From contig JASANE010000115.1 in the NCBI GenBank assembly GCA_030248225.1, positions 21,852 to 85,851 of the forward strand: a stretch of 64,000 nt of DNA. Reading direction: 5' to 3'. The DNA is from Trileptium ribeirensis (lineage: Eukaryota > Nematoda > Enoplea > Enoplida > Thoracostomopsidae). How positions within the stretch are numbered: the stretch's first letter is position 1; each line of letters starts with the position of its first letter. The translations under genes and the position numbers were made by a program. Of this stretch, positions 9,614-34,163 are shown piece after piece. Below the pieces are notes generated by a model, which did not search any database, was not told the origin of the DNA, and saw only the letters and a list, made by a program, of their open reading frames with translations.

Positions 9614-9627
9614 CCGTTTAGACACGG
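9614..9627 (+). promoter_or_regulatory. Short LTR hairpin, copy a
   Basis: CCGT and ACGG arms around a TTAGAC loop, downstream of the TATA box and so within the predicted transcript. The same motif recurs at 10036 and 10516. Confidence 0.55.
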
Positions 9628-10035
9628 TAGAAAACTTTCATAATTTACAGCAAATAGTTCAGGATCCCGCCACAAATTGGCGTTATACAACATTTCTAAA
9701 TTTTCAGACGACCTCCAAAAGACCATGGAGCTTCTGTTGACTCGTGCTCCACCCGCGCTCGCTTTCAAAGTAGCAGTTTGAATTGAGACTAAGTCATAGG
9801 AAAATTTATGAGAACAACTCCAGGTCACACGCCTTAAAGACCCACTTGTTGGGCAATCAGGAATCCTCCAACCCCCGGACGGACGCAGTCATTTGCACTC
9901 GGGAAACATTTCAAAGAAAATTAAAAATGGAACCCCTGACGCTAGCCCCAGAAATTCGAGCTTCTACTCTGAGATCAGTGCTTCTCCGATGAAAATTCAA
10001 TCAGCTAGCCCCTAAAATTCCAGACGGGTCTCAGG

Positions 10036-10049
10036 CCGTTTAGACACGG
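10036..10049 (+). promoter_or_regulatory. Short LTR hairpin, copy b
   Basis: Identical core to the copy at 9614, 422 bases further on, preceded by tctcagg. Confidence 0.55.
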
Positions 10050-10514
10050 TAGAGCACTCCGTCACGCAATTTTAGTAATGGAATAACTCTCGATGGGTCG
10101 ATGCGGCTGCTCCATAGGGAGCGACGTATCAGCACCTTTCGTGTGTTATTTCCTCCCATTTTCCACGATTTTTGGCAAATCCACCATTCTAATTCTACAG
10201 GGGTGTCCGAAGTGTTTTCAAGCTTAAATCACAACTGGTTTCTTTTGGTTCTCAAACTAAGCAATTCGTTGAGGGCGCGGCAGCACGCGCCCTATTCACG
10301 CTTGCAAATGACTGCGGACTTCCACTAAATTCCAAGGAGTAAAGTACCAAACTAAGGAATGAGACGGAGTCAGCTGCAACGTATAGTCGAGTCAAATTTT
10401 TAGGAAATTCGTGTGCTCGCACCCGTTAGTGGAGCGACAACCCTGAGAAAGACCCCAAAGCAAGTGTTTTCCCCAACTTTCCAGGAAGGAAAACTTATAG
10501 GCGCGGACCCATAA

Positions 10515-10530
10515 ACCGTTTAGACACGGT
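10515..10530 (+). promoter_or_regulatory. Short LTR hairpin, copy c
   Basis: ACCGT / ACGGT arms around TTAGAC. It is retained in the 3' LTR at 32313-32328, where copies a and b are deleted. Confidence 0.55.
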
Positions 10531-11777
10531 GGGTTCCGGTATAGCGCCCTGTTTTCATGCCAAGTTATAATTTCAAAATCTTCACAAGGCCAACAATGTT
10601 CGGGAGACGCGGCAGCGCCTCCCTCTTTTGACAAAGGCCCACGCTTTCTATCTATCTGACCCTGGCGCACGCAGAGTTTGATGACAAACTTTCATTACAA
10701 GTAATCAGCAGCTGACGTCCGGCCTCAAGATAACAAACGGCACATAGATGGAGCACAGAGTAAAAAGGGTAATAGCAAGGGGATGTCTGATAGTCCAGAG
10801 CGTTTTCATGGGCGAAGTCACCAAACGGTCGGCAAGGGAAGTTGATTTCTGCGTCCCGTCAGGCGGGTAAGACAGACCACAGGGTACAAAATGTGGGCGC
10901 AAGCTGAATCGATTTTTAGGGGTTTAATCAGGTTTCACATCACTCGTTCGGTACTTAAGTATATCACGGGGTGCCCTGCGAGGTACCCATGTATTTTGGT
11001 GTACATAAATTATCTTGGTTACTCGAATGTGATAACTTGCCGTTTATCTAAATAAAGTGTTAGCGTGTGAAACTTATAGTCGGCGATATGTGCTTAGTGT
11101 AGTGATTAAATCAGCGCTTTAAAATCATAAATCAGAAGTGAACCTAAGGCTAAATCTCAACCTATAGGACCTCGACTATACTTAGGTCAAGTAAGGCTTT
11201 CCTAAGTTGGCGAGGAAAGTACGCCATCTGTTAAGGCTCCGCCGCAGCGATGATTGGTAAATCCAAGCTTTGGTTAGATCTTGAAATTCGCAATTTGGCT
11301 CACTCAGTAGTTGGTGCACGGCTTTACTCAAATTTATTCGCACTAGACAAGAACCCTGGGGATTGAGCTCCAGGTGTTCCCTCAAGCTGCCGGTTCGGCA
11401 AGGAACCTCTAGTGGAACCAACCAAATTTATTGTCTGAACTAGGCTCCCGCGCATCCGACTGAAACAAGGAATCGCACCTCCATTTAGGATTTAAATAGA
11501 ATTGAGGGAAAGGCGAGTCAGCCTTATTACCTGCGAGCAGGCTTAGGGGTTGACTCTCCCTCAGGGGGACCTGCATGCCACTAGACACGTGGGCCAATAT
11601 AGGGGCCAGGCCGAACACCCTGGTTAACCCGCCGGCAGCCTACTAAGCTAAGCGGTTCCCTTAGGTTATCTAGCAGATCACCGGGGAGTCGTGGAAGCCG
11701 GGGTTGTCCGGGCACCACGCCAAGAAAAATTGGTGGTGCAGCTGGGATCCCTTAGGGCCAGAACTGGTCCTAGTACA

Positions 11778-13568
11778 TAATTTTAATTGGGGGCCACGCC
11801 GTGAGGAGGCGTCCGTAAAATTTCTTTAAGGATAAAAGAATTTCTCTATCTCTAGGTATCGGACCTCTCGCATGATATCAATATAGTACTCCACGGGAAG
11901 CGAAAATATTCTAGCTGGTTGTATGGAATGGTGCCGTGTATGAGTCTAGGACTAGCGTATATCTCGAGGTTTATATTTTCACCCTGCACGGTGAATCAAA
12001 TTGTTGTTAATTGTGAGCATGATCAAATATGCAATAGAGCGCACAGGTTGGGGCTTGATGCCGTTGTTATATGGGTCACTGTAACTGGCTCGAACTCACC
12101 TGCCGAGCATTTTGAAATTTAAGAGCTTAAGGTACTGGGAGTTGACCAACACAAGGGCGTTGAGCCGCCAAGGTGTGCGCGTTTTGAGTGAAGTAGTGGA
12201 ACGTAAACGAGTAGTGTAACTCCAGCGGAAAGGAAGAGCCCGGCGTACACTGGTTTGTGGAGCCCCACAGATCCCTCCGGCGTTGCCTGTTGCGATAATG
12301 GCCTCAGAGGGTCATCATTTCAGGTTTGATCTTAGCTGCACAGTGTTGCTTAAATTAATTACTTATTATTCTTTGGTTATTATCTATTGTTATCGACGGC
12401 TTATACTACCGTTTAATCGCCCACGATTGTGCCCGACTCATCACTGACATTAATCGACACCACCAGTAACGGTAAAACTATTCCTGCAGCACGGAGTGAG
12501 CTAGTGACACTGCTAAATCGTAACTCCAACTGAACTTTTCAGCTTCACGGTTAAGACTATTGTGAAATTGCGACACCGTTGCCTGGAGTGCCCCTGGAAT
12601 AACTACGGGAATTCAATCATCACTCCCTTAGCGCCATTAGTGCAGCACTAGTAATCGTGTAAACCACGTCATCGTCGGAATCACGTACTACCGGTCGCAA
12701 AGTATCGAACATTTCGGCGTGAACGGAGATAATCGGAGCGATCAGGACCAACGTATTGGGGCAAAACAATTAGTGTGCTTTCGTGGCCATGGAAACGAAA
12801 GGAACGTATTTTCGAAGGACAATTGGCCGCAATTAAATTATTGGAACAATGGTCAGTACTTCGCTTTAGAGCGTAGTTCTGTGTAGTATATTGTGTTTTA
12901 ACATAATTTTATTACTTGTATATTGGTAAAGGAATTTAGAAAGAACTTATTCTAATTTGTTATGCTTGCTTAATGCTATCGCACGTGCGTCCGGACTGAG
13001 CGTTGAACGAATTTTTGGCCATCTACCTAAAATTTCGATAGTTCTGTGACTAAACTATTATCTAGTTAGGAGGTAGCCTCATCGGATCGTTTTCGGGCCG
13101 CTGAATTTCATCAACCCAACACTTTCTGATAAGATCGCATCACGAATTTCTAGAACCAGTAGGAATTGACGCCGGAAAATTCGTAAATAATACAAGGGTC
13201 CAGCCAGAGTATACTGGCCCGGAGAGTTCTTAAGTGAATATCTAGTTTGCTTCTTCGGAATTGGATGTTACGAGCAGACAGTGAAAACTGGTGAGAGTAC
13301 TCGAGTTCTACTAGGGAAGTGCAATCGCAAGTAATACGAGTGATCGAGCGAGGTGAAAAGTTCACACCAACAGTTACATACTTAAGGAATAGGTACACCA
13401 GTATAATAGTAAAGCTGAAGCGTGCCGTACAGTAGCAATTCTGCTATTAAAGTAAACACCTATATTTCACGCTATATATATTTATCATCCATGCCCTTGC
13501 CAGGCTTGGAACACGGAAGCCCCACAACTTGAAACAAATAGGGCTTATAAATAAACTCGGAATCAAAA
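11778..13568 (+). other. Retroelement leader between 5' LTR and gag
   Basis: About 1.8 kb without a convincing gene. TGGGGGCC at 11788, ten bases after the LTR end, has the TGG start expected of a tRNA primer-binding site. Only the first bases resemble a known proline-tRNA site, so that call is weak. Short ORFs here lack family signatures. Confidence 0.5.
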
Positions 13569-14786
13569 ATGTCTGTACCAGCGAGCGCAATTAGAACGCC
13601 GACTAGCAGCACATCAGGAGAAAAATCAGGAAGGCACGCCACCCCAAATGGACCGGTACGAACGGGACCCATTAGTAGCAATCCTACAGCAGCTAACGTA
13701 AAGGGCAACCACCGTGGCGCCTATAATACAAGTGGGGGACATTCCGCCGTTTTCAGGAGCAGCACATCAGGAGTAAATAATCTAGGAAGTGGCACAGCCA
13801 CCACGGCTGATAGTACAAATGGACCAGGTCCCACCGTAAACGGGGACCCATTAGTAGCAATCCTACAGCAGCTAACGCAAAGGGCAACCACCGTGGCGCC
13901 TATAATACAAGTGGGGGACATTCCGCCGTTTTCAGGAGCTGACGGACAGGACTTCGAGGCCTGGTTAGCCACCTACGACAATCTGACGGATGCGAACGGA
14001 TGGACATTAGATCAGAAACTCATTTGCTTCCCGACTGTATTGAAAGGTGAGGCACTTAAAATTTACGAAAGCTTCCCGGACTGCCAGAAACAAACGTATG
14101 AAGCCCTTTGCTATAACGTGGGTTTCATGTACTCTTCCTCCCAGCGAGATGAGGACGCCTTAATCACGTTACGCATGCGCATACAGGGAGAACGAGAATC
14201 AGTCGCTATGTACGGACTAGACCTCCAAAACTTAGTGGACAAAGCGTTCCCGGAGGTCGAAGGCGAACAACGTGACGCGTTACTACAAAAATTCCCGCGG
14301 CAAGGACTGAGAAAAGAATTAAAATCTGGCGTAATAGGGGAGACTTACCCATCCTTCAAGCATATGATAGACAAGCTTAAGTATAAAGAAGATGCCATTA
14401 TAGCGTCCCAAAAGGAAGTTATCGGAGTACCGGTTCGCAAAAGCAGCCGGTCCAAGACAGTAAACTGCATATCTCAAGGCGCGGAGAACACGCAACTGGT
14501 GGATCAGATCCGTGAGGCACTAGATGAGAACAAGCGCACCACAGCTGGTAGCGATGCTACTATCGCTCGGCTTATTGATCTACTAGATAAGCGCACGGAA
14601 CAACACCAACTAAATGCAATGATGCAGAATAACGGAGCACCGCAGATAGGCGCAAGTGCAGTACCACCGCCAGTACCAGTCGGAAACCAGTGTTTTCGAT
14701 GTGGCTATATAGGGCATTTCGCTAGAGAATGTCCGTATTCCGAATGGATGTGTACGATCCATTGCAAAATGAATACACACGTTTAG
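13569..14786 (+). CDS. gag: Gag (capsid and zinc-knuckle nucleocapsid)
   Basis: Gag forms the cytoplasmic particle that packages element RNA. The 405-codon frame has a variable Ser/Thr/Gly-rich first ~110 residues. A retrotransposon-Gag capsid core follows, recognisable from IPPFSG..GQDFEAWL at ~118-135 and the following helical Y/L-rich region. A CCHC knuckle, CFRCGYIGHFAREC, lies near residue 377-390. It stops soon after the knuckle and overlaps the next frame (14729-15850) in the -1 register by about 60 bases, where a programmed shift or a mutation could join them. The N-terminal ~60 residues come from an out-of-frame duplication, so the true start could lie elsewhere. Confidence 0.85.
   Translation: MSVPASAIRTPTSSTSGEKSGRHATPNGPVRTGPISSNPTAANVKGNHRGAYNTSGGHSAVFRSSTSGVNNLGSGTATTADSTNGPGPTVNGDPLVAILQQLTQRATTVAPIIQVGDIPPFSGADGQDFEAWLATYDNLTDANGWTLDQKLICFPTVLKGEALKIYESFPDCQKQTYEALCYNVGFMYSSSQRDEDALITLRMRIQGERESVAMYGLDLQNLVDKAFPEVEGEQRDALLQKFPRQGLRKELKSGVIGETYPSFKHMIDKLKYKEDAIIASQKEVIGVPVRKSSRSKTVNCISQGAENTQLVDQIREALDENKRTTAGSDATIARLIDLLDKRTEQHQLNAMMQNNGAPQIGASAVPPPVPVGNQCFRCGYIGHFARECPYSEWMCTIHCKMNTHV
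13605..13940 (+). repeat. Tandem duplication at gag N-terminus, read in two frames
   Basis: AGCAGCACATCAGGAG at about 13605 recurs at 13758, and the stretch from GGGACCCATTAGTAGC at 13664 through CCGTTTTCAGGAGC at 13760 recurs at 13843-13939 with one or two changes. The offset changes from ~153 to 179 bases, so the two copies are translated in different registers, both open. Confidence 0.88.
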
Positions 14787-15850
14787 TCACACGCGCAGCG
14801 CCTAATTACACGTACAATGCACCGCCACCTCCCGCTATTGAATATGCTAGGCCACCACCGCAGTACAACAATCGCCCTCGCTATCGGGTAGTTGAACCTA
14901 GACGTGGAGGACCATACTCGCGACGCGATGAGTGGAACAACAAGGCTAATCAGCGGGGATACACTGGTTATGGGCAGCAAGGATACTATCGCCCAGAGCC
15001 CGCAACCTACAACACGTATGGAAATGGCGGTCAGACCGAATATTATAATAGATCTCGCGGACGTAGCGCTAATGAGTACAACCAGCGAAACAATGGATAT
15101 GACCCAACACACGAGCGACGCTACGCTGCACCACCCCAATTATTGTCGGCAGAAGCCGCTCCGTTTCGACCGCGCACACCTAGCAATGGTTGGAATAATA
15201 CAAATCAGCTAGGAGCAGTGCCCCGAAATAGACCCGCCCAGGCACCAATAAATAACAACGAGCGAGGGCATCGTCGCAATGCCAGCGTAATGTCAGTGAC
15301 CAAAACAGCAGATCCTGAGCTAGCACACCGCCTAGATGTCATGCGACATGAAATGTCCACGTTGGAAGAACGCGCAGGAGCTGGCTTAGGCACCCGTTCG
15401 GCACAAGTTAATATGCTGGTCACTGAAGATGAAGCAATGCACCAACATAATAACACGCATTTTGAAATTGAGCCGGAACACCTATACGACATTGAGACAG
15501 AACCAGGTTTGTATCAAGTAAATCTATTGCAAACAAATAGGGACACACCACGCGAATGGTTACAAGCGACCGGGTCGCGGAGTGGCAACGCACCAAGCCA
15601 ACCACAAGAAGATGAAACACTTGTATACGGAGAATACAGATATGGTAAAACACAAAGTGACACTGAACCCATACGGCGCTCGGCTTTGTTGCCTCCAACC
15701 CCTGGCGCGCAGGGTGTGACCCGAGACTCTGTGAATAATGGTTGGCCAACCAACTTATTGTATATCCCAATCGGAAGTCAGCGCGAGGAGATGAAGAGTA
15801 CCGAGATACCGAGCAGAGGAGTGAGAGGGGAGGAGGAACCGAGAACCTAA
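14729..15850 (+). CDS. Low-complexity R/Y/G/N-rich Gag extension or separate ORF
   Basis: The 373-codon frame overlaps gag's end in the -1 register. The preceding stop in this frame is at 14723, so only about 60 bases are available for a shift. Residues ~20-150 are rich in Arg, Tyr, Gly, Asn and Pro with RRGGPYSRR and Y.RPEP-type runs, as in RNA-binding disordered tails. The rest is acidic and lacks a recognised domain. Its last 109 bases overlap the next ORF. It is most likely the Gag C-terminus, but an independent protein is possible. Confidence 0.6.
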   Translation: MSVFRMDVYDPLQNEYTRLVTRAAPNYTYNAPPPPAIEYARPPPQYNNRPRYRVVEPRRGGPYSRRDEWNNKANQRGYTGYGQQGYYRPEPATYNTYGNGGQTEYYNRSRGRSANEYNQRNNGYDPTHERRYAAPPQLLSAEAAPFRPRTPSNGWNNTNQLGAVPRNRPAQAPINNNERGHRRNASVMSVTKTADPELAHRLDVMRHEMSTLEERAGAGLGTRSAQVNMLVTEDEAMHQHNNTHFEIEPEHLYDIETEPGLYQVNLLQTNRDTPREWLQATGSRSGNAPSQPQEDETLVYGEYRYGKTQSDTEPIRRSALLPPTPGAQGVTRDSVNNGWPTNLLYIPIGSQREEMKSTEIPSRGVRGEEEPRT

Positions 15851-18234
15851 TGGAACTAATGGAACCAAATGATCCTGATGTGCCGAGTGAGAAATATGGG
15901 AGATGGCCGTTCGGACTTCGGGGGCCGATTAATAGGGCATCCGTGTCTAGCAATGACCCAAACGCTGGCACGTGTAACCCATCTCAGGCGGCTGCACATC
16001 GGATGGAACCTAAGAACCTAGCGGATGGAGAACCTAATGAAATGGAACCTAGAGAGACGCCGTTCGGACTTCGGGGGCCGATTAATAGGGGTCGCGTGTT
16101 TGGCAATAGCTCTAGCGCCGGCACGGCACAACCTGGTGAACCCGCGAATTTTCATAGGCTTAGTCAAAATTGTGTGTGTCTAGCGGAACCAGAAGAACCT
16201 GCGGAGGAAATTGTGAACCTAGCGGAACCTAATTGTGAACCTAAGAACCTAGCGGATACTGAGAACCTAATGGAACCTAGCGGAAGGAATGGATTACTGA
16301 GGAACCGAGAACCAAGGGAACTAAATGAACCAAGGAACCTAGCGGATGCATCCAACTTAACTATACTGACTTCCACCAATTTAGGGCGGCCGTGTGAGGC
16401 CCCTGTAGCTTTTCAACCGACCGGGGAAGACCGTAAAGGACATTGGTCAGGTGCGATGGAGGCCTTCGGAACACGGGTCAGTCCGATTGCCCTAGCTCCG
16501 TTCAAAATTCTAAAGCGTATGTGTACCCTAGTAACTTTAGAGGCCGGGGAAGACCGTAGAGGACACTGGCCAGGAGAAGGGAGGCGTCGGGAAGTGAGCT
16601 GTTGCGATGGCCCGAGCTCCGTTCAAAATTATAATTTATGTGTAGGACCAAATCCGAACAGGGTTCGGTCCCTAAGTGTAGAAGCCGTAGGATCCGACCA
16701 GGTCGGAAGCCGCGGTGATCGTTTGTCGTTGTATAGTAGCTCCATCCGGCCGGTGAGTATGTGTGCGGCCGACTGCGACCGGGTCGGAGCCGGTATGTTT
16801 GCATCGTGTGTTGAACCGGGGGAAGAAACTGTGCAACATGTGAGAGAAAAGGGTTTAGGGCCACACGGAGACAACGCCGAGCCGAGTGCCGACAATATTA
16901 CCAGCATAGAGAATCATGATGATCGAGCTAATATATGTGAAATTATGGAACCTAACGATGAGAAAGTGGAACTCAGTAACCTAGAGGAGAATAATGTAGA
17001 CAAAAAGGAACCAACAGTAACCAGTAAAAGCTCGAGAGTTGTGATAATAACGCCTATAGTAAATGACAGGACACAGAGAGCAAACATAATGGCACCCCCG
17101 CAGCAGGAAAACAATATGGAGATTGTTACGTGTCAGCTAAGTACAGAAGCTGCCTGTGAAATAGGAATCAACCCAACCGGATCGCCGGTTGACTTGACGG
17201 AAGTAATCGAACAAGCACTAAAATCACCTAAATCATTGGGAAACGTACAAACTTCCGGCCGAGCAGGCATGGTTCCCGCGATTAGTTACACAGACACACA
17301 TTTGACAGAACATAAGTACACGTCGGATCAAGGGTATGCACAAATATGTAGGCAACAGACATTGGATATTATATTGAGGAAATTATACGCATTAGAGAAC
17401 AGCAGCGAATTAGTAGAACCGCTGATCTTACAAGGATTTCCAGACGAGGAGCAAATTACATTACTGGGGTCGGATTCAAAATTCGTGCCCGCAGTCAAAC
17501 CGGAATATTACGGCAAATGTCCCCATTACATTCTCGCGCTGCCTAAATTACGTTTCGGAGAAGAACGAGCACCAATAAGAACGCTATTTTATCGGCGGGT
17601 CATAGCTGTGTCGGAGCGGATATGCCATGCCCACCAGTTGCTCAGAGCTCGGGTGGCTGGGACGGCCCGAATCGACCGACGGCGGGACGCTGCCGTTTTG
17701 TCAGGGCTGTTAGGGTTCGCATCTCCGTTCCTACACACTATGCCGGGGATACACGTTAGCAGTAGCATGTTGAAACACCTAGAGGGACTCTTGGAGATCG
17801 TTGCCCGGGTCATTAATTCAATGAGCATCACGCAAGCAATCACTGAGGTATATCGATCCCAAATCCCTATTCTACAGACATGCATCATGTGCGAGGAAAG
17901 ACACAATATAAACTTCATGCCTAAAGAGGAGTGTGCGTTCACCACCTATCATGGCGAATGGGACTACACCGGGAATCTGTCCGCCGATTATGGAACCATT
18001 AGGAGAAATGGGACAGTATCCATTCGACCAAGCCGCACACATGGATTGCATACGGCCCATGAACTCATAGCGTATAGGGAAGCCAACTTGGAGTTTTTAG
18101 AAACCATAGTAGGTGCACCATACTTGTTGGATAACCTAGTCACGGAATTCGACGAAACCGGACCCAAAGTTCCGGTGCTGTCAGCACAACACACCGTATA
18201 CGCTAAATGGCCAACGCGCTTTTCAGGGAAGTAA
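15742..18234 (+). CDS. 830-codon ORF of unknown function, repeat-rich N-terminal half
   Basis: The frame is fully open between gag and the envelope region. Its first ~230 residues are built from EP.NLA/MEP repeats and hold PFGLRGPINR twice (15909 and 16065). Residues ~230-450 are low complexity. The last ~380 residues look globular, with Cys pairs (TCIMCEERH) and a moderately hydrophobic stretch. I recognise no family; it could be an N-terminal part of the envelope precursor or a Gag-associated protein. It overlaps the envelope frame by 28 bases, and a donor-like GTAAGT sits at 18231 across its stop codon. A related fragment occurs at 63.6 kb. Confidence 0.7.
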   Translation: MANQLIVYPNRKSARGDEEYRDTEQRSERGGGTENLMELMEPNDPDVPSEKYGRWPFGLRGPINRASVSSNDPNAGTCNPSQAAAHRMEPKNLADGEPNEMEPRETPFGLRGPINRGRVFGNSSSAGTAQPGEPANFHRLSQNCVCLAEPEEPAEEIVNLAEPNCEPKNLADTENLMEPSGRNGLLRNREPRELNEPRNLADASNLTILTSTNLGRPCEAPVAFQPTGEDRKGHWSGAMEAFGTRVSPIALAPFKILKRMCTLVTLEAGEDRRGHWPGEGRRREVSCCDGPSSVQNYNLCVGPNPNRVRSLSVEAVGSDQVGSRGDRLSLYSSSIRPVSMCAADCDRVGAGMFASCVEPGEETVQHVREKGLGPHGDNAEPSADNITSIENHDDRANICEIMEPNDEKVELSNLEENNVDKKEPTVTSKSSRVVIITPIVNDRTQRANIMAPPQQENNMEIVTCQLSTEAACEIGINPTGSPVDLTEVIEQALKSPKSLGNVQTSGRAGMVPAISYTDTHLTEHKYTSDQGYAQICRQQTLDIILRKLYALENSSELVEPLILQGFPDEEQITLLGSDSKFVPAVKPEYYGKCPHYILALPKLRFGEERAPIRTLFYRRVIAVSERICHAHQLLRARVAGTARIDRRRDAAVLSGLLGFASPFLHTMPGIHVSSSMLKHLEGLLEIVARVINSMSITQAITEVYRSQIPILQTCIMCEERHNINFMPKEECAFTTYHGEWDYTGNLSADYGTIRRNGTVSIRPSRTHGLHTAHELIAYREANLEFLETIVGAPYLLDNLVTEFDETGPKVPVLSAQHTVYAKWPTRFSGK
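15838..16350 (+). repeat. Coding minisatellite of GAACCTA units and PFGLRGPIN boxes
   Basis: Irregular repetition of gaaccta(gcgga/atgga) units makes the EP.NLA protein repeats. Two 29-base blocks from ccgttcggacttcggg, about 157 bases apart, encode the PFGLRGPINR box. Confidence 0.75.
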
Positions 18235-19085
18235 GTAGCAGACCAAATCGTGAAGAACTATTGTACCTAAGACTGTTGTGGTTACGTAAGCCCGCTCAAA
18301 ATATCTGGCAAAGTGACCCAATGGACGACATGGACCTAGTTCCAACCCCGGATAATGACGCTGACATAACATTCATTGACGAAGAGGAACTTGAAAGTGA
18401 GTTGAGTGCAGCACTCAGTGACGCTAGCGCGGACGAATTCGACATGCCCGCGATTGAATCACTCGACTTCGACGACCTCACCTCTGAGTTAAGTTTCTCC
18501 GCGGACAATGGGACTGTCAGGCATGAACACGATACTACCGTTGATAGGAGTAACCAGACATCACCGTCTGGGTCGGTACGGTCTTCTTCAAACGGATTAG
18601 GACAAAGAGTAAAAGGTGCAGTTGGATTGCTAAACCAGGGAGCTAAGATAATGGGACTACTAATAGCATTACTAGTCCTCCACCAGTTAGGGCAAACCCA
18701 CGCTATTGCCACGCCATTTTCGGACCAAGTCGCACGCTTAGGAGCTATGGTAAATCCACAGGTGGGCACGCTGATCGAACCACAAGGTTTAGTGATTACT
18801 GCTTCGCAATCCACTTTCTTACCAATAATCTTACGGTTATCCTTGGATGGATTACAACCTAGTAGGCAAGCAACGGGTATGGCATGGTGTGTATATACTC
18901 CTCGGGGTAAGCCATGTTTGGGGAATTGTTGTCCCAACCCAAATTGTACTACCATGCCGGATTTACAACAAAATGTTCAGGAATTAGAGAGAGTATTAAG
19001 GAGCACTTATCAAGGCGTATTAGACACTAGTTACTACATGGAACTAATGCGCGAGTATTGCGAGGCGAATTCTCAGGATTTCTAG
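18207..19085 (+). pseudogene. env: Envelope-like glycoprotein, surface part
   Basis: The 292-codon frame starts with ~150 mostly acidic, Ser-rich residues. A hydrophobic segment near residues 150-168 (GLLIALLVL) could be a signal anchor. After it comes a short lumenal part with a Cys cluster (CLGNCCPNPNC). The frame ends at TAG 19083, but the same register stays open afterwards and leads directly into a basic cleavage-like site and fusion-peptide-like segment, so the stop looks like damage. It is placed between gag and pol. Assignment as the surface subunit rests on this context; sequence similarity alone would not show it. Confidence 0.55.
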
Positions 19086-19182
19086 GTGTAGGTGAGGAAC
19101 CAAAGGTCTCAAGGAAAGAAGCGATTTCTCGCCGCATTAGCTGGAGCAACCGGTGTAGTGACAGGATTTCTAGGTGTAGGTG
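19074..19182 (+). repeat. 21-bp direct duplication flanking the envelope cleavage site
   Basis: CAGGATTTCTAGGTGTAGGTG occurs at 19074-19094 and again at 19162-19182. The downstream copy encodes part of the hydrophobic segment. The upstream copy is read one register off and supplies the TAG..TAG stops. Confidence 0.85.
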
Positions 19183-20770
19183 TAGCGTTAACCAACGCTG
19201 TGCACCTTAAGGACTTAAATAAGCAGGTACTCGCGTTATATAAGGAAATGAGAAACACAATGTGACCTATGGTAATTCGCGAGCGATCATGAAATTAACG
19301 CACGCTAATGAGGAGTTGTACTCATTTCTACATCATGAGATGCATGAGGTAGTTTCTATGATCGATCAGGTAAGATGCCAAAAGCAACGCTATGTTACAG
19401 TGGTTCACCGCGAGTTAGTTAACTATATGTTTCGCACCAGCCTTAGGTCCTCGGTTGACGCCGTCATGGAAGCCATGATGAGCGGCCGATTATCACCTAA
19501 AGTAGTGGACGCCTCCACGCTCAAGAACTTATTTCAGAAGAACTCGCAGATAGCGCAGACAATTCTAATACGAGAACCTGCGCTGGCCTATCAATTCGGG
19601 CAAATATACCCAGTACATATCGATCTAGGGTCATTCAAATTTGCCTTTATATTGCGAGTTCCCTTAGTCACGTCGGATGATGTCCGATCCTACTTTCGAA
19701 TTTACAACGTTGGCTGGAACGTTCCAGAGCATGGCGCCCACATGAAGTTACCATTGCCTGATTACGCTACCCGGGTTGAACGAGCACGGTACGAGGTACT
19801 TAAACTACATGCATGTAACACGCGACCAGATATTGCGTTCTGCGAGATACACGCATTGGGTAACGGACCATACATCGCGCTGTTTGGACTGGATCATCAT
19901 GGGCGCGGACGCTCCGGATGAAGCTCGTCAACTTTGTAGGAACAGCGCATTGGTCGGGCCAATGGCTAATCACACCGATGTTTACACTACAGCACAAGGA
20001 GTCTTAATCCGAACTGCTGAACGCAAGGCCGTCGTCTCCAAGAAGAAACATCTTAGTCACGTTACCCGAGGAGAGACGATTGACATTGCAGACAACGGGG
20101 TTTTGTGGCTGTCGCACAGTAACTACACCCAGCTCGTGGTCGGGCCACTTATGCTGGCTAGCGCTCTCGACGCGCAGGAAGTCACGGTTCACATTGGACC
20201 CAACATCACCGTCCACGACTTTCCGGAAATACCGCTCAAACCGATTGCTTGGAGCTCATTGGAACACGCCAAAGCCACTAATTTACAAGTCCAGCAAATA
20301 GCGGACGAACAGCTGAAGAAGGTAATCGACTTTCCATACATCACTACAACAGGAGTGGCTCCCTACCTATGGATGCTCATCGTGCTAGTAATTGCTGGCA
20401 TAGGGGCAATAATTTACTTCAAGAAGAAAGCTGGCTTCTGCCCTAAGTGTATAAAAGGGCGCCTACAACGCTGGTGGCAACAACGACCGTGCGTTCGGGA
20501 GGAGCTAAGGCGACCCGAACTGCATGTTAAGACGGACGATGAGTATGGCACCACAAACACGCCTCGACCCACTGTTTCAGCCCCAGCTGCTTCCACGGAA
20601 CAAGTCGAGTTACGAACGATGAGTCCTCGCCGCTCAGCTCGAATAAATGCTACTGCCGAGGACGAAAGCGTTGTCCTGGTAGAGCCCACGGAACTTTTTG
20701 CTGTGTCTGAGCGATCCCAGCGTAGAGGACATCGCACTGTAGCCTACCATCGACAGGTAAACGCAATGCA
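19095..20770 (+). pseudogene. env: Envelope-like fusion subunit (class I / baculovirus F-like), frameshifted
   Basis: A basic GKKR at 19113-19124 precedes a ~25-residue hydrophobic Gly/Ala/Val-rich segment, the arrangement of a furin site and fusion peptide. Heptad-type sequence follows, then a S.K.V.A..L-type region seen in baculovirus F and errantivirus envelopes. A membrane span of about 19 residues lies at ~20365-20425, followed by a basic cytoplasmic tail. The register changes near 19262 (frame from 19262 to 19921) and again near 19905 (frame from 19776), so no intact product exists. The tail continues in frame into the protease. Confidence 0.7.
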
Positions 20771-21248
20771 TCACATGGACGAACCCCTACTCATCAATGC
20801 TTTTGTGTACCGCACACCGGTACTTACACTAATAGATACCGGGGCGGACGTTTCCATAGTGTAACAATATCTGGTTAGTAAGTTAGGCCTCCAGCCGCAG
20901 CCCGACGATTCCACTAGGATAGTATCTGCCACCAAACAGGAATTAGCACTAGACGGCAGCATCAGCGTACCTTTGTCGATCGGGTCCATAAAGGTACAGA
21001 CAGAATTCTTTGTCACTAAAACCGCACCTTATCACTGCATCATAGGAACAAATTTCATGTCCCAACTGCCAAAGTGCATCATAAATTTTAAAGAGCGTTG
21101 CTTAGAAATAGCAGTAGATGAGGAAGAGGCTAATATACCTTTTGCCGGATTAGAACGGTATGACCCGCCATTAATCGCCGTAATGTGTAGGAAACTCACC
21201 ACAATAGAACCCAACACTGAAACCTTCATTAACGCGATCCCCAAATAG
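19776..21248 (+). pseudogene. pro: Aspartic protease, fused in frame to envelope tail, one internal stop
   Basis: Retroviral aspartic proteases dimerise to cut Gag and Pol. The catalytic loop LIDTGADVSIV lies at ~20829-20861. The next codon is TAA (20862-20864), after which the same register continues through the flap-like region and the IIGTNF motif (~21045) expected of the family. Upstream the frame is uninterrupted back through the cytoplasmic tail and transmembrane segment of the envelope. The frame ends at TAG 21246. About 30 bases later RT-linked sequence is open in another register. Confidence 0.8.
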
Positions 21249-21277
21249 CTGATACAGGAGTAGGGCCGGCATTATTC

Positions 21278-22824
21278 GTGCCTGCACCGGAAATGGTAGA
21301 TATCGCAATGGCCCACGCATTAATATTAAGAAGCCAAAGAACAATACCAATCGCAGTATTTAATTTCGGAAACACACCGGTCACTATTTATGCCGGACAA
21401 ACAATAGGTCACATGGAGATAATGATGAACCCAAATGTGCAGTTCCTGAAAGGCACAAACAAAAATCTGATTCGATATGAGGAACATAAGCCAGCGAAGC
21501 ACTTAAATAACATCACCACCCACCCTGAAAGAATTATTCAACATATCGAAGCAGGAAAAAGTTCAATCGACCATGAAAGAGCTCAAACGATCTTGAGTAA
21601 GATAAACTTCGATAAGACTTTATTGTCCCCATTTGAGTTAAAACAACTGAAAACTGCGATCGCTGAGAACGCAGACGTCTTCAGCACGCACGATTTTGAT
21701 CTAGGGCGTTACACTGAACATAAACACCGCATAGAAACCGGAGATGCTAAGCCAATAAAGAAAGCACTGTATCGACTAGCACATTCCCTACGCGAACCGC
21801 TTAGGGAGGAACTAAACAGCATGCTAGATGCGGGACTAATATCGCCATCAAGCTCACCTTGGGGATCACCAATAGTGTACGTAACCAAGAGTGATGGCTC
21901 ACTCCGGCTCTGTGTGGACTTTCGTAAGGTAAACACAGTGGCAGAACAAGATGCATATCCATTACCCAGGATAGATGATATTTTAGGATGCCTCCGAAAC
22001 ACTAAATTAATGTCTAGCTTAGATTTAAATAAGGGTTTCTGACAGCTAGAGCTCGATCCAGAAACAAAAGATAAGACATCCTTCGTAACAGTTCATGGAC
22101 AATACGAATACAAAGTCCTGCCGTTCGGATTGAATTCGTCCCCAGGGGCTTTTCAACGTTGCATGTCCATGATTTTAAAAGGGTTAGAATGGGAAAATGT
22201 TTAATCTACATAGATGACATACTGGTATTTTCACCAACGTTCGAAGATCATTTAACGGATCTAATTAGAGTGTTCGACCGTCTCCGCAGAGCCAATTTGA
22301 AATTGAAACCGTCGAAATGCCACTTTGGCCGAGGTAGTCTAAAATATTTAGGACACATAATTAGCACAGAAGGTGTAAAACCAGATCCCGAAAAGGCAAT
22401 AGCAATCGAGGAATTCAAACGTCCAGAGACGTTGAAGCAGCTTCAAAGTTTCATAGGACTATTAGGGTATTACCACAAATTTATACCAAACTACTCGGAC
22501 ATATGCGAACCACTCAGTAAGTTAAAGCGCAAGGATACTGAATTTAAATGGACACTTAGGTGTGAAGACGCCTTTAAGAAATTAAAACAAACGCTACTAG
22601 ATGAACCCGTGCTAGTGCACCCTGACTTTACACAGCCGTTCATTTTACAAACGGGCGCTTCAGTATACGCAATGGGCGCAGTGCTCTCGCAGAAAACTAA
22701 ACAAGGCCTCAAGCCCATAGCATACGCAAGCAAAGCTCTGCTAGATTATCAACGTAGATACCCGCAATCGAAGCTGAAGCTCTCGCGATCAGATGGGCAG
22801 CGCTACACTTCAAGCATTATTTAG
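21278..22824 (+). pseudogene. pol: Reverse transcriptase, Ty3/Gypsy type, with a stop and a frameshift
   Basis: RT copies element RNA into DNA. Conserved blocks in order are AGLISPSSSPWGSPIVYV, LRLCVDFRKVN, the LDLNKGF block, LPFGLNSSPGAFQR and the catalytic YIDDILVF (~22207). The first register (21278-22042) ends at TGA where the family has Trp, the likely product of a TGG to TGA change. It stays open to about 22203, then the YIDD block is in the next register (22159-22824). The thumb and connection follow (GYYHKFIPNYS..). Confidence 0.88.
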
Positions 22825-26892: not shown

Positions 26893-28164
26893 ATGCATCG
26901 AGCTCACAGCACCAACAACATCAATGCCCGTTTGATCCCAAAGGGCGTGCGGCACGCACCAGTGGACATCGACGGGCACGTGTTCCCAAAAGTGCCTCAA
27001 TACCTCGTGGATCGAGCAGAGCGCTGTGAATTCTTTTCGCTCAAAAGCAAAAGGTGGAGCTACCTGTCCAACGAACATTCCTCCGCCGATCGCTTCGAAC
27101 ACGACGGGAGGCGTCTCGCCAGTGCTGCCGAGCACTACCATCTCAGCATCCTGGAGCTGTTGGGACGCGACGAGGAAGCAAAGGAGTTGGGCGAAATGGA
27201 CATCTCCCCAACCGAACTCCAGCTCCGCAGCATCGCCCTACAGCGCCAGATCCCGCATAGTGTTCGGCGGTGGCACATGTCCTACCGGGCACACCTGATG
27301 CGGCCGATTCTGTTGGCAAAATTCAACATCGATGAGTACGCCGAGGAGTTGGAAAGAACCGGCAGCCGGCCACTCCTCAGCGACTCAATGGACAACTTTT
27401 GGGGCACGGGCATGCCCCCGGCCCAATGCAGCGGCCACCGAACAATCTGCCATAACGTTACTGGCCGGTTGCTCGAGGAGATCCGAGCTTTCAATCGCGA
27501 CGGGTTCGTTCGATGGCCACGGGTAATAATCGTCGGCGACGAGCAGGCCCTGCCGCTCCTCGACGTAGCCGACGAGCACAACTGGCTCGTCCTCACTTAC
27601 CCAACGCTGACAATGGTCGAGCTGCTGCAGTGGGCCAATGCACTATTGACGCCGCAGACGGACTGCATCTTCGTCCTTGGCGGTTATGACGACGTGTGGC
27701 TGGAACCGCGGAAAGCATTCTCGCCAGGTGCCTATTTCAAGCGCATAAAACGGCACCTGGGAGTACTGGATCGGCGCGCCCGGGAAGATGCCGCCATCTA
27801 CGTTGCGTCGCCTCCCCCACACTGGAACGCCAACAACTACACTGTCGACACCTGGGGACGGCAATTCCGCACACGGAAAACGGAGCTCACTATCAGCCAC
27901 CAATCGCTCCGTAACGTAATCATGCCACGATGGCCGGCGCCACTCATGGAACCCGAAGCCTGGGACGCGGTCGGACCGTTCAACCAGGGGGAGGACCGGC
28001 GGCGTTGGAACAAACCTGTTGTGGCTCCAACGTGCCACCTCGAATTGGTCGCGTGGATAGAACAAAACATTCAAAGCGCGGACATTATCCGGCGGCTTAT
28101 GGAGCGACCACCGCCAAAAGAAGAATATCATGACTATTCTGATAATGAGGAGCCAAGTATATAA
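26893..28164 (+). CDS. NADAR (YbiA-like) domain plus SGNH-like domain, accessory ORF 1
   Basis: NADAR proteins hydrolyse N-glycosidic bonds of ADP-ribose derivatives; some reverse DNA guanine ADP-ribosylation. The intact 423-codon frame has FFSLKSKRWSYLSN, AAEHYHL, RPILLAKFNIDEYAEELERTG, FWGTG and a CHNVTGRLLEEIR end, in the order of that family (residues ~45-210). Residues ~210-400 resemble an SGNH hydrolase: VIIVGDEQALPLL for the GDS block and VLGGYDDV for GxND. The usual catalytic Ser is absent, so this half may not be an esterase. The ATG directly follows a tatag acceptor-like site. It is GC-richer than the flanks. Domain calls come from pattern reading, not a profile search. Confidence 0.75.
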   Translation: MHRAHSTNNINARLIPKGVRHAPVDIDGHVFPKVPQYLVDRAERCEFFSLKSKRWSYLSNEHSSADRFEHDGRRLASAAEHYHLSILELLGRDEEAKELGEMDISPTELQLRSIALQRQIPHSVRRWHMSYRAHLMRPILLAKFNIDEYAEELERTGSRPLLSDSMDNFWGTGMPPAQCSGHRTICHNVTGRLLEEIRAFNRDGFVRWPRVIIVGDEQALPLLDVADEHNWLVLTYPTLTMVELLQWANALLTPQTDCIFVLGGYDDVWLEPRKAFSPGAYFKRIKRHLGVLDRRAREDAAIYVASPPPHWNANNYTVDTWGRQFRTRKTELTISHQSLRNVIMPRWPAPLMEPEAWDAVGPFNQGEDRRRWNKPVVAPTCHLELVAWIEQNIQSADIIRRLMERPPPKEEYHDYSDNEEPSI

Positions 28165-28404
28165 AGAGGTGGCGGGTACAGGCAAAGAATTGTTAGAGCA
28201 GTTTAGAAAGTTGGGAGCAGGGAAGAAACTAAATGTTTAAATCATCCGGAGATGATAGAGACGCAAACCGCTATACAGGCTAAATTCACTTGAGATAGGC
28301 ACTTTAACCCAACGACGCATGCACTTGGAAAATAAAGATAGGCAAGGCAAGCGGTGCGTTAAGCAGATAAGTGTATACTAGATTTATCTAAGTTCCCTTT
28401 ATAG

Positions 28405-29644
28405 ATGAGCACCAGCAACATCGACGTGACACCAAACCGAAAATCCGGCGGACGACTACCAACGGTCGGACCGTACGCTCCGCCGGAAACTGCCTTATTC
28501 CAGCTACCTACAATCCCGGTCTACCGAGTGGACCTGAATATGCCATATGCCGCATTCCTCTCGCATGGTACGTATTGCCCAGAGCTGTCGAACATGCACG
28601 AAACGCCAGTGCCGTTCAGCAACGATTGCGTCCTTGCCAACTCCGTAGAGCGGCATTACGACGTCCAGGTGCTGGCACTTCTGGAGCACCATGACGCCGC
28701 TCGAGAACTCATCGCATCCACCGACACACCCCTGCAGATCAAATCCCGGGCGCGAGTGCTAAAGGATGAACTAATCGACTACGTCACTAGCGCTCGCCTT
28801 AAGCCGCTGTTGGAGCACATCATGCGCCCAATACTGCTCAAGAAATTCGCCATCCCGGAGTACGCGCATGTGCTCCAACTTACCGAAAATCAACAACTAC
28901 TCGAAGCCTCAACGGACTCTTTCTGGGGTGTCGGACGCTCCAGTCAGCAACTGCAGAATAAGGAGGCGCCCGGACGCTGCCATAATATCATGGGACGCCT
29001 GCTCGAAGAGGTGCGCGAATTCCGCGCCACAGGCAACGTGCGGTGGCCCCAGACAGCCATATTGAGAGACGCGTTGGCCCTACCCCTGTTGGAAATGGCC
29101 GAGGATAATAACTGGTTGGTCAATGGATGGCCAGACACTCATCTCGCCCGGCTTGTCCAGGCCACCAACGCCATCGTCACGCCGCAGCTGAAGTGCATCA
29201 TCCTACTAGGCGGCTACAATTACATCTATCGAAAGGCGCCTCTGGAGCAGCTCCATGCGACAAATCCAAACGCGGCATTCAAGAAGGTAAAGCGCCATCG
29301 GGGTTTTATCAAAACGGGTAGCGCCAACTACAACCATCATTATAACACCGCCTATACCGCGTTGGGTTGCTACCAATCAGGATGCCACGTCCTGGACGGC
29401 TGAGCTGAAACAAATCCTGATCAACCATCGTCAACGGTATAACACGCTTCACAACGTGTTTATTCCAACGTGGCCCGTCGCATTCAACACACCCGATGCG
29501 TGGGAGAGAGACGAGCCACACATGGAGTGGGGCGAGCGACCGCAGTTCCGCGAGCCGATGGTATCCAACTACTGCCGTCGCAACCTACGCGAGTGGGTAA
29601 GCCATTTGGTTCGCGACGCTGAGTTGAAACGCTTGGCACCCTGA
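28405..29644 (+). pseudogene. NADAR plus SGNH-like, accessory ORF 2 (frameshifted paralogue)
   Basis: It is clearly homologous to the preceding ORF: RPILLKKFAIPEYAHVL, DSFWGVG, CHNIMGRLLEEVREF, then the AL.LPLLEMA and LLGGYNYI blocks. The first register runs 28405-29403. A register change near 29340-29385 carries the conserved end (PTWPVAFNTPDAW...) to TGA at 29642-29644. The GDE of the first ORF is RDA here, so the SGNH-like site is even less canonical. The ATG directly follows ttccctttatag. A tandem duplication of an accessory gene is the simplest origin. Confidence 0.7.
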
Positions 29645-30592: not shown

Positions 30593-31433
30593 TGTAACAG
30601 CCCTAGATTTTTAGGGATTTCTAATAAGGCCAAAAGTAGGGAAACATTTAAACTAAGGCCAAAACAAGGAGTATATCTAACGGGACGGGCGATCGGATAC
30701 CGGTGGAGCGTGATTCCGGTATTATATGGTGTGTGCATTCATTGTTGTTATAAAATTAAAGTCATATCTTGCTTGTTGTATCATCACGCTCCACCTGCCT
30801 GGCATGCGCGGGCATGATTATTGTCGCATGAGATATAACAAAATAGGAACCCAAATTGCAGGTGTCCGGTCGACCCGAGGTGGATTCAATGATAATATGT
30901 ACATTTGTAAAAATTTTTGGATGTGTGTATAAAGAAATGTGACTTTATTTTATTCTACTTTATATGGTAAAAGAGGGTGGTAAAATGTCCGGGAAGGAAA
31001 GCGATCAAACCTATCAAAAAGTTATTTTTCCAGGGCTACTTAAGAACGAAATTATTATATCTTCTGACACTTCAGGCCATGTAGGCTTATACCGTTACCA
31101 AGAGGGCTCCCTAAGGCTTCAAAATTTTGTGTTCCGGTCAACTTGGTCCTCACCGGTAAGTACTTAGGGACCCCTAAGTAGGCGTTTAAACACCCTATTT
31201 TCAAGGCCTCCTATCTCCACAGAAATAACCAAAACTCCCCAATTTTTCGATCTCTACATCTCCACGGGGTCTTACCCTAACAGTTCCACTGAAAACGGGG
31301 ACCACCTAACTTAACTGGTCCGAGCAGGACCCTAATAACTCTCCCGGGACACCAAAATTTCCTGATTTCATCGTACGAAACCGCCTCTAACAGGCCACCT
31401 ATGGGAGCTATATTAAATTTAATATTTCTATCA

Positions 31434-31482
31434 GTAGGCGACCAGCCAGGGCGTGAACCCGGTCCCGCCCCCGGCCGCCTAC
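31434..31482 (+). promoter_or_regulatory. Conserved 49-nt hairpin, copy 2
   Basis: Arms GTAGGCGACC and GGCCGCCTAC. The G-U pair of copy 1 is G-C here. AATAAA follows at 31508. Confidence 0.65.
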
Positions 31483-31870
31483 TATTTTCGGTTCCCCTGC
31501 AATACCAAATAAACTCCAGAACAACATAATAAGTTGGAGCCCTCTAAGCGCCGATATATTTGGCTGTTGATAAGACCTCGCGCCGACCATCGCGAGGTTT
31601 AGTTGTTATTTGCTTTTAGCCACAACAAGCTCTGCTCGCGGGCATCGATCATTTTCGACCGGCGGGGTTTTATGATATAGCAGCCGATTTGTGTTATTTC
31701 TAAGTTTGTTGTTGCGCTGCTTTCTTTTATGCTTGAGTTGCCATTGCCGTGTATATGCCTTTGCTATGTATATATAAGCCGGTTAGAATTTTTGAAAATT
31801 TGGAATTTTCAGATGTTGGAGATCAGCCAGGGCACTGAGGAACAGCAGAGAAAAAGGGGGTAGCTGAGAG

Positions 31871-31877
31871 TATAAAA
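31871..31877 (+). promoter_or_regulatory. TATA box of 3' LTR
   Basis: TATAAAA in the same context as 8944. Confidence 0.65.
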
Positions 31878-32312
31878 GGAAAGGGCTCGACGCAGCGTCG
31901 GGACCAGTCGGGAAATGCCGCTCTAAAGGCGGCGGTTTTCTTCTGCAGGCGGTTGTCGCCATTTGTTTTCCTGTTTTCAAAATTTTGGGTTTTCGTTTCC
32001 GGTTTTCAAGCTTAAATCACAACTGGTTTCTTTTGGTTCTCAAACTAAGCAATTCGTTGAGGGCGCGGCAGCACGCGCCCTATTCACGCTTGCAAATGAC
32101 TGCGGACCTCCACTCAATTCGAAGGCACTCAGACGAGTGAAGTACCAAACAAGGGCATGAGACGGAGTCAGCTGCAACGTATAGTCGAGCCAAATTTTTA
32201 GGAAATTCTTGTGCTCGCACCCGTTAGTCGAGCGACAACCCTGAGAAGGACCCCAAAGCAATTGTTTTCCCCAACTTTCTGGGAAGGAAAACTTATAGGC
32301 GCGGACCCATAA

Positions 32313-32328
32313 ACCGTTTAGACACGGT
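32313..32328 (+). promoter_or_regulatory. Short LTR hairpin, copy c of 3' LTR
   Basis: ACCGT / ACGGT arms around TTAGAC, the counterpart of 10515-10530. Confidence 0.5.
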
Positions 32329-32801
32329 GGGTTTCAGTATAGCGCCCTGTTTTCATGTCAAGTTATAATTTCAAAATCTTCACAAGGCAAACAATGTTCG
32401 GGAGACGCGGCAGCGCCTCCCTCTTTTGACAAAGGCCCACGCTTTCTATCTAATCCTGGCGCACGCAGAGTTTGATGACAAACTTTCATTACAAGTAATC
32501 AGCAGCTGACTTCCGGCCTCAAGATAACAAACGGCACATAGATGGAGCACAGAGTAAAAAGGGTAATGGCAAGGGGATGTCCGATAGTCCAGAGCGTTTT
32601 CATAGGCGAAGTCACCAAACGGTCGGCAAGGGAAGTTCATTTCTGCGTCCCGTCAGGCGGGTAAGACAGACAACAGCGTACAAAATGCGGGCGCAAGCTC
32701 AATCGATTTTTAGGGGTTTAATCAGGTTTAACATCACCCGTTCGGTACTTAAGTATATCACGGGGTGCCCTGCGAGGTACCCATGTATTTTGGTGTACAT
32801 A

Positions 32802-33399
32802 TGTGGTGACACGTCACCAGCCCCGTTTTCTTATCGTGATACGCACGGTGTTTTGCATATCGGGAACGCTAGCTACGTTGTATATGTGTGTTTACGATTA
32901 TATTTTTCGTTCACTTCTTCTTCACGGTTTTTCAATCTTGTTAGATAGTGTTTATGCTCAAAATAAATGATTTTCTGATGTTTCTAATGTCTAATCGGAG
33001 TTCAGAGGGACGTCTCAGGGTTCAAAAATGATTAGGCGACCTTCATTATAACTGGCTTCATTCACAATAAATATATTTCATTTATTCAATATAACGTACC
33101 TTAAACCCTCCCGTGGCGTGATATGGTGCCGCAAGCCTGGAACTTGATTGGCCAAAGTTTAACGTAAAGCAGTGTTCCAGATAGTGTTTGCCGATTCGCA
33201 CATCCATTAGAATGGAATTTAGTTTTCCAGGCAGTCAATCTTCAAAGTTTGGAATAACTTTTTCAGTTCAAAATGTACGTCCAATTTGTTTTCTCGAATC
33301 CCGGGGTCATACGTCGGACACTCCCACTTCCGTTTCGTGATTACTCAGACATTAACGCCGAGCAATTGTCGGTAGCAACCCTGCTTGCATTATTATTGG
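32802..33399 (+). mobile_element. ~600-bp insertion in 3' LTR, possible solo LTR
   Basis: The sequence is absent from the 5' LTR, which reads straight through this point. It starts TGTGGTGACACGTCACCAG, a typical LTR start, carries AATAAA at 32962 and has a CA at 33388-33389, ten bases before the LTR sequence resumes. No clear target duplication was found, so a solo LTR is likely but not proved. Confidence 0.55.
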
Positions 33400-34163
33400 T
33401 TATCTTGGTTACTCGAATGTAATAACTTGCTGTTTATCTAAAGTGTTAGCGTGTGAAACTTATAGTCAGCGATATGTGCTTAGTGTAGTGATTAAACCAG
33501 CGCTTTAAAATCATAAATCAGAAGTGAACCTAAGGCTAAATCTCAACCTATAGGACCTCGACTATATTTAGGTCAAGTAAGGCTTTCCTAAGTTGGCGAG
33601 GAAAGTACGCCATCTGTTAAGGCTCCGCCGCAGCAGTGATTGGCAAATCCAAGCTTTGGTTAAATCTTGAAATTCGCAATTTGGCTCACTCAGTAGTTGG
33701 TGCACGGCATTACTCAAATTTACTCGCACTAGACAAGAACCCTGGTGATTGAGCTCCAGGTGTTCCCTCAAGCTACCGGTTCGGCAAGGAACCTCTAGTG
33801 GAACCAACCAAATTTATTGTCTGAACTAGGCTCCCGCGTATCCGACTGAAACAAGGAATCGCACCTCCATTTAGGATTTAAATAGAACTGAGGGAAAGGC
33901 AAGTCAGCCTTATTACCTGCGAGCAGGCTTAGGGGTTGACTTTCCCTCAGGGGGACCTGCATGCCACTAGACACGTGGGCCAATATAGCGGCCAGGTCGA
34001 ACACCCTGGTTAACCCGCCGGCAGCCTACTAAGCTAAGCACTTCCCTTACGTTATCTAGCAGATCACCGGGGAGTCGTGGAAGCCGGGGTTGTCCGGGCA
34101 CCACGCCAAGAAAAATTGGTGGTGCAGCTGGGTTCCCTTAGGGCCAGAACTGGTCTTAGTACA

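Follow-up and report, generated by a model that had tools for sequence, protein, structure and literature searches.

Tandem NADAR genes with a putative degenerate SGNH half in a giant Ty3/gypsy-type retroelement of Trileptium ribeirensis

Background

In bdelloids, long terminal repeat (LTR) retroelements carry a GDSL esterase as a third open reading frame (ORF3) after the integrase; the types of ORF3 are common to different retroelement classes, and the GDSL derivatives found in Athena-L lack catalytic residues (PMC5408684). A NADAR domain of the YbiA family has been reported as a conserved part of Pol in an Ectocarpus Gypsy element, and one is also found in ORF1 of an oyster Tx1 long interspersed nuclear element (LINE) (PMC12477816). 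In a 64,000-nucleotide stretch of Trileptium ribeirensis contig JASANE010000115.1 (the window, part of a 687-Mb assembly of 20,229 contigs), a giant LTR element carries two homologous genes, ORF-A and ORF-B, each of which encodes a NADAR domain followed by what appears to be a degenerate SGNH domain. As judged from profile alignments, each active site of these LTR-borne genes has lost a residue that the known enzymes require, and some of the ADP-ribose pocket is gone as well, the rest being conserved.

The arrangement is of a known kind, in which an LTR retroelement has gained a third gene. The window element resembles the bdelloid elements in having an apparent SGNH-fold ORF after the integrase, in sharing ORF types across unrelated retroelement classes and in showing some catalytic loss, but it has two tandem copies of this ORF. 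Moreover, the term NADAR is absent from the bdelloid paper, which reports no significant departure from neutrality (PMC5408684), compared to a ratio of nonsynonymous to synonymous substitution rates (dN/dS) of about 0.1 here. Like the window element, the Ectocarpus Gypsy element is a Ty3/gypsy-type LTR element with a conserved NADAR; the window NADARs, however, lie in two tandem ORFs after the integrase, are joined to the putative SGNH domain and have lost a lysine of the active site. The Burro elements are also of the Ty3/gypsy type. These retroelements of planarians exceed 30 kb (PMC11410931), and the likeness to the window element is that of a giant retroelement.

Two host proteins offer further comparisons. 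The SGNH region of Oskar has been shown to bind RNA (PMC6191285) and the domain has been called non-catalytic (PMC3905857); as in the ORFs described here, an SGNH-related domain without a hydrolase role is part of a two-domain protein (PMC6191285, PMC7250577), although Oskar is an insect host gene, its partner domain is LOTUS and the likeness is one of description. The nematode protein SNA-3 acts in trans-splicing and contains three NADARs, of which one does not have the conserved residues (PMC9303266). It is therefore similar in combining several NADAR domains, one of them without conserved residues, with a role in RNA processing; it differs in being a host gene that is reported to be nematode-specific, with no SGNH mentioned in the available part of the source (PMC9303266). 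NADARs also occur in RNA and DNA viruses (PMC9503650), while their roles in animals have been described as unclear (PMC11125620).

Among the open-licence papers listed, no report was found of a NADAR and SGNH pair, of a tandem duplication after the integrase or of a NADAR in Polintons. The initial annotation of the window knew of no described retroelement with these domains, which stands for the pair, within that literature, but not for the single domains, as NADAR (PMC12477816) and GDSL/SGNH (PMC5408684, PMC3905857) have each been described in retroelements. New here are the pairing of the two domains, their tandem duplication, a partly separate history of the two genes, and an ORF of NADAR-like and SGNH composition behind a BEL/Pao-type integrase.

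Results and discussion

The initial annotation had placed two homologous ORFs after the integrase of a giant LTR retroelement, and this is what was found: both occupy the ORF3 position, 3' of the integrase and inside the element, and share 38% identity in the compared part (Table 1). The tandem pair was confirmed, with one correction: ORF-B of the window copy is broken near its end and its C-terminal part continues in a different frame. Among first-lineage relatives, ORF-B can be a single frame of 411-413 aa. The NADAR assignment was likewise supported. Given the curated cut-off of 35.1 bits for Pfam NADAR (PF08719), ORF-B matched the family above the cut-off (E=7.4e-13, 49.5 bits) and ORF-A just under it (E=1.3e-7, 32.5 bits), and a profile built from 21 copy proteins (12 A and 9 B), 19 of which matched PF08719 at E<=0.1, retrieved 8bau, a NADAR of Phytophthora, as its single PDB chain at E<=10 (E=1.6e-5). 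The same profile matched, with 94.8% probability, the NADARs of elements in this genome that were labelled by eye as Polinton-like. Single-sequence searches of the PDB at E<=1 gave no NADAR or SGNH chain (no matches for ORF-B; eight unrelated matches for ORF-A, E>=0.17), and no relative of the A/B profile was found in the protein database at E<=0.001 among 7999 scored candidates.

For the C-terminal half, which the initial annotation had called SGNH-like, the assignment is good but indirect. This half of the window gene had no direct Pfam family match. Lipase_GDSL_2 (PF13472) was reached by one of the eight C-terminal halves tried, from an ORF-B copy (E=0.014), and by 2 of the 21 whole copy proteins (best E=0.043); a profile of the C-terminal half found nothing of SGNH fold in the PDB, and comparison with the single protein TesA of E. 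coli gave no match. A bridge was provided by other proteins of this genome. A genome search with PF13472 yielded 36 matches among 107 candidates, many of them in open frames of approximately 400-470 aa, and five of these 36 loci were taken as a bridge set. All five bridge proteins are about 400 aa long and contain an SGNH domain (E from 1e-10 to 1.5e-6, with the lowest-scoring one short of the curated cut-off), and all five keep the block I serine (as GDS, GNS, SDS, ADS and CDS), the GxND of block III and the DxxH of block V. Comparison of the window-type profile with the bridge profile gave a probability of 94.1% (E=1.3e-7 for this one comparison) over 247 columns that cover both domains, with the GDE of window block I facing GDS and the GGYDD of window block III, both as found in ORF-A, facing GGVND. 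By comparison, 40 column-shuffled bridge decoys reached at most 0.6% probability and a score of 21.0, against 61.8 for the real profile, and the reversed bridge profile reached 0.2%. The bridge match with its decoy control, taken together with the weak direct matches, supports a degenerate SGNH domain in ORF-A and ORF-B. None of the five N-terminal halves of the bridge proteins matched PF08719, and the bridge profile matched the NADARs of the Polinton-like elements weakly (12%, E=0.0024); we infer that these halves are NADAR-like. No relative of the bridge profile was found in the protein database at E<=0.01 among 1521 scored candidates.

Active-site residues were tabulated for 46 distinct open copies (25 of A and 21 of B), those of the window included, each matching at least 85% of the query, and were placed by profile alignment to 8bau. 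In NADAR hydrolases, a glutamate and a lysine seven residues later have been shown to be needed for efficient hydrolysis of guanine-ADP-ribose (PMC11543638). At the position of this phosphate-coordinating lysine, none of the 46 copies has Lys or Arg in either register; the A copies have I, V, A or T (L in the other register) in 25/25 and the B copies V (L in the other register) in 21/21. The residues of 8bau reported to contact ADP-ribose are K75, R79, Y84, D86, W89, R93, D130 and W133, of which K75 is, according to one statement in the same source, only near the ligand (PMC11543638). Equivalents of K75, D86 and W89 are retained in 0/46 copies, B having Arg at K75. In the putative SGNH half, the serine nucleophile of block I is replaced by Glu in all 25 A and by Ala or Val in all 21 B copies, and the block III asparagine of GxND is Asp or Gly in every A copy and Asn, Gln or Ser in 11, 9 and 1 of the B copies, respectively. 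A DEPH string near the end of ORF-B resembles block V by eye.

Both ORFs are multicopy in this genome. Among the best 99 of 2519 candidates scored in a search with ORF-A, the window included, 99/99 matched, with identities from 95% down to 55-59% in a second lineage, and many copies were without stops; queries from the second lineage gave at least 102 matches for A (best 101 of 2507 candidates scored) and at least 95 for B (best 95 of 2631 candidates scored). ORF-B adjoins ORF-A in all 32 distinct other loci cut out as ORF-A copies; these came from a set of 14 and a set of 20, in which L018 and L039, and likewise L017 and L040, are one and the same locus. Of the second set, 18 regions extend at least approximately 2.6 kb upstream, and 16 of them contain an integrase there, the two without being L030 and L033; L032 and L035, which stop at a contig end, are outside this count. 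Viewed from the integrase, at least 34 of 99 integrase loci have A at a distance of 1579-1917 nt past the integrase fragment, and at least 45 of the 99 have A or B at the expected distance; the gap between A and B is 246-480 nt in 28, among the matches listed. Six of the remaining 54 loci (C13202, C12305, C2216, C15305, C9249 and C1266) have open frames of 4335-4346 aa with 93% integrase identity and no A or B match among the matches listed; these loci may carry another third-gene lineage or none.

Both ORFs are held by strong purifying selection. Median dN/dS values (NG86; open copies with repeated loci removed, the pairs not being independent) within the two lineages were 0.098 (78 pairs) and 0.111 (66 pairs) for A and 0.043 (66 pairs) and 0.049 (36 pairs) for B, compared to 0.031 and 0.051 (15 pairs each) for the integrase. 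Between lineages the values were 0.186 for A (154 usable of 156 pairs), 0.121 for B (80 usable of 108 pairs) and 0.030 for the integrase (36 pairs). When stop-bearing copies were included, with two loci entered twice, the within-lineage values were 0.098 and 0.118 for A and 0.053 and 0.049 for B, and dN/dS exceeded 0.5 in 1 of 572 pairs. The two halves of A are similarly constrained, with NADAR/C-terminal values of 0.11/0.11 and 0.09/0.10 within lineages. Other copies with dN/dS below 1, a check named by the initial annotation, are present in the same genome, at about 0.1 for A and about 0.05 for B. A host gene captured once and now carried as a decaying passenger, a case that the initial annotation had also raised, would fit the broken ORF-B and the broken polyprotein of the window copy. 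We regard it as extremely improbable: B stands beside A in each of the other distinct loci, at least 99 A and 95 B candidates were scored, with many open and A diverging to the identities given above, and selection acts in the other copies. The single captured host gene was rejected, as it conflicts with the low dN/dS, far under 1 in and between the lineages, together with the constant pairing of A and B.

Taking into consideration the selection and the loss of residues, we favour, with roughly an even chance of its being right, the explanation that ORF-A and ORF-B, as paralogous accessory proteins, have a non-catalytic binding role in the RNA-protein particle of the element. The matches show that the folds derive from enzyme families, indirectly so for SGNH, and it looks as if the element has adapted old enzyme folds as a tool for another purpose. 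The NADAR half would still recognise some feature of a nucleotide, of ADP-ribose or of RNA, binding of RNA or a partner would fall to the SGNH half, as in Oskar, and the paralogues would cooperate when the particle is assembled or protected. Precedents are that the SGNH region of Oskar binds RNA and that the NADARs of SNA-3, one of them without conserved residues, act in trans-splicing; for an accessory protein of a retroelement that has both folds, service in the RNA-protein particle would be the simplest role.

Several observations weigh against this explanation. The NADAR catalytic glutamate is in register in 21/21 B copies and one residue off in 25/25 A copies, and the Asp and Trp of DxxWGxG (D130 and W133) are retained in all 46. 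Further contacts are kept in part, with an Arg equivalent to R79 in 24/25 A copies (0/21 B), an Arg equivalent to R93 in 13/25 A (0/21 B) and a Tyr equivalent to Y84 in 12/21 B (0/25 A), so that some chemistry may remain. The loop register of the alignment to 8bau is uncertain, and the copies fall into two related lineages, both retrieved with the gene of the window, and cannot be counted as independent. The SGNH assignment is indirect, and the window C-terminal half alone matched the bridge less well than the full length did (31%, E=5.2e-4). Structure prediction from the two window sequences only gave a mean predicted local distance difference test score (pLDDT) of 33, which is unusable.

The retained residues bear on whether the NADAR half continues to work as an ADP-ribosyl hydrolase, removing from the element's RNA or complementary DNA (cDNA) the marks set by a host ADP-ribosyltransferase, as in the counter-defence role proposed by the initial annotation. 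This role would be consistent with the conserved Glu, Asp and Trp, with the partly kept ADP-ribose contacts and with the finding that NADARs, including eukaryotic ones, hydrolyse guanine-ADP-ribose (PMC11543638). In addition, Glu, Lys and Asp are all present in 6/6 aligned NADARs from the Polinton-like elements (Phe replaces Trp in three), suggesting that ADP-ribose may be of importance to mobile elements in this genome. However, the lysine is missing from every copy, as are the K75, D86 and W89 equivalents, and no match to DarT (PF14487) was found in the genome, where other ADP-ribosyltransferases were not searched for. The counter-defence proposal is weakened by these results, and we consider a remaining hydrolase role unlikely.

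The two genes appear to have a history that is partly their own. Second-lineage integrases are mostly 92-95% identical to that of the window, with pieces of 86-88% in two regions, whereas in the same regions A is approximately 56-58% and B mostly 60-64% identical to the window. Median synonymous divergence (dS) between lineages was 0.74 for the integrase, 1.92 for A and 2.30 for B, with A and B near saturation. Within a lineage, the pair L039/L041 had dS values of 0.18 for the integrase, 0.99 for A and 0.75 for B, and L039/L043 had 0.22, 0.24 and 0.60, respectively. Codon constraint in the integrase may add to this difference. Such differing genealogies of element parts point to recombination or template switching, and a history of the A-B cassette partly separate from the integrase is consistent with exchange between element lineages.

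The 1.5 kb upstream of one bridge ORF, L048, encodes an integrase that matched DUF5641 (E=3.8e-18) and H2C2 and, weakly and below the cut-off, rve (E=0.0011), a composition typical of BEL/Pao elements. An ORF with NADAR-like and SGNH halves thus appears to follow the integrase in a second LTR superfamily, as seen in 1/1 bridge locus looked at. This relative, with its SGNH residues kept, would also fit a membrane or trafficking role for the ORFs, similar to that of a LINE ORF1 esterase or an env substitute, as would the ORF3 position, which is the site of env or GDSL ORFs in bdelloids (PMC5408684), and the binding of phospholipids by the LINE ORF1 esterase (PMC3905857). Such a role leaves the NADAR half unexplained, and the serine nucleophile is missing from 46/46 window-type copies; we find it quite unlikely.

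Other mobile DNA in the window lies beyond the 3' LTR. The region 35000-46000 on the minus strand was labelled by eye as the remnant of a Polinton/adintovirus-type DNA element, with frames broken by stops. On this strand, two weak DNA_pol_B_2 pieces (E=0.004 and 0.006, below cut-off) were found at 42661-44172, Endonuclease_7 (E=1.4e-5) at 43552-44172 and C2H2 fingers at 44950-45807. A further NADAR, of the Polinton-like kind, lies at 37968-38452 on the minus strand, approximately 4 kb past the 3' LTR, and is split over two frames (A5 profile, E=3e-37 and 6e-8). A genome search with PF08719, in which the best 150 of 2317 candidates were scored, provided the eight best loci used for this kind; six of these adjoin an ATPase-like frame, as judged by eye, and two short loci end before it. 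The only match to COX1 is a nuclear fragment that is damaged; by eye, an invertebrate-type mitochondrial code suits its reading best.

The element itself spans positions 7667-34163 of the window (26.5 kb) and is of the Ty3/gypsy type, by its LTRs and by the order of reverse transcriptase (RT) and RNase H before integrase between them (Table 1). The two LTRs share 96.6% identity in an alignment of 2963 columns, apart from two long gaps (1139 and 596); both begin with TGTAACAGCCC and end with TAGTACA, termini taken from the sequence, and the flanks show a possible 3-base TCG repeat that is not significant. The Gag-like frame contains a 97-bp direct repeat, 99% identical at a spacing of 179 (13664-13939), and the spacer between integrase and ORF-A (26640-26893) is TA-rich and microsatellite-like. 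No confident Pfam family was found among the pieces tried from the Gag-to-RT region (about 2000 residues). In the RT and RNase H region, the piece at 22159-22824 matched RT_RNaseH_2 (E=8.8e-25) and RVT_1 (E=4.1e-11), and the piece at 21278-22042 matched RVT_1 weakly (E=0.045). Four relatives of the integrase were found elsewhere, all with RVT/RNaseH/IN architecture, at 24-32% identity.

Table 1. Features of the retroelement and its two third genes, in positions of the window
Feature	Position	Strand	Evidence
ORF-A, 423 aa: NADAR (about 53-199) and putative degenerate SGNH (about 208-423)	26893..28164	+	Profile matches
ORF-B, 332-aa frame: NADAR (about 61-205) and start of putative degenerate SGNH	28405..29403	+	Profile matches
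ORF-B C-terminal piece, other frame	29291..29644	+	Window-type profile (A1) E=1.8e-55, positions 289-402
5' LTR, 4111 bp	7667..11777	+	blastn self-match to 30593-34164, 94.5-96.4% per piece
3' LTR, 3571 bp	30593..34163	+	Same blastn self-match
Gag-like frame with CCHC zinc knuckle	13551..14786	+	Pfam zf-CCHC E=8.6e-5
Large uncharacterised polyprotein part, several broken frames	14726..20864	+	ORF lists
RT and RNase H pieces, broken	21233..22824	+	Pfam
Integrase H2C2 zinc domain	23425-23928	+	Integrase_H2C2 E=1.9e-8
Integrase core and long C-terminal tail	23929-26640	+	rve E=3.6e-12, MLVIN_C 8.6e-6

The coding region of the window copy is split into many frames. Among 99 integrase loci scored in the same genome (4986 candidates), the integrase lies within an open frame of at least 4300 aa in 15, and the family therefore probably encodes a polyprotein of approximately 4.3 thousand residues. 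Being downstream of so long a frame, ORF-A and ORF-B need some route of expression, and the NADAR half could bind capped or outron RNA and feed the downstream ORFs into spliced-leader trans-splicing, by analogy with SNA-3. We hold this to be very unlikely; that SNA-3 is reported to be nematode-specific (PMC9303266) counts against it.

Conclusions

The window element and its relatives carry a multicopy, selectively maintained retroelement gene in which NADAR and apparent SGNH folds have dropped known catalytic residues, and which we regard most readily, though by no means firmly, as a binding protein of the element's RNA-protein particle. A wider reading, which we offer tentatively as one possibility, is that LTR retroelements of this animal lineage, Ty3/gypsy and BEL/Pao alike, share a NADAR-SGNH cassette behind the integrase as a standard third gene that can be exchanged; it would have been duplicated in the giant Ty3 lineage and turned there from enzymes into a dedicated reader of RNA or nucleotides, while in the NADARs of Polinton-like elements Glu, Lys and Asp are all still present. 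If true, this would point to a genome-wide contest in this animal over ADP-ribose or NAD-linked marks on nucleic acids. The gene represents a tractable case of repurposed enzyme folds, and the system allows testing of whether NADAR folds can read nucleic-acid or ADP-ribose marks without hydrolysis.

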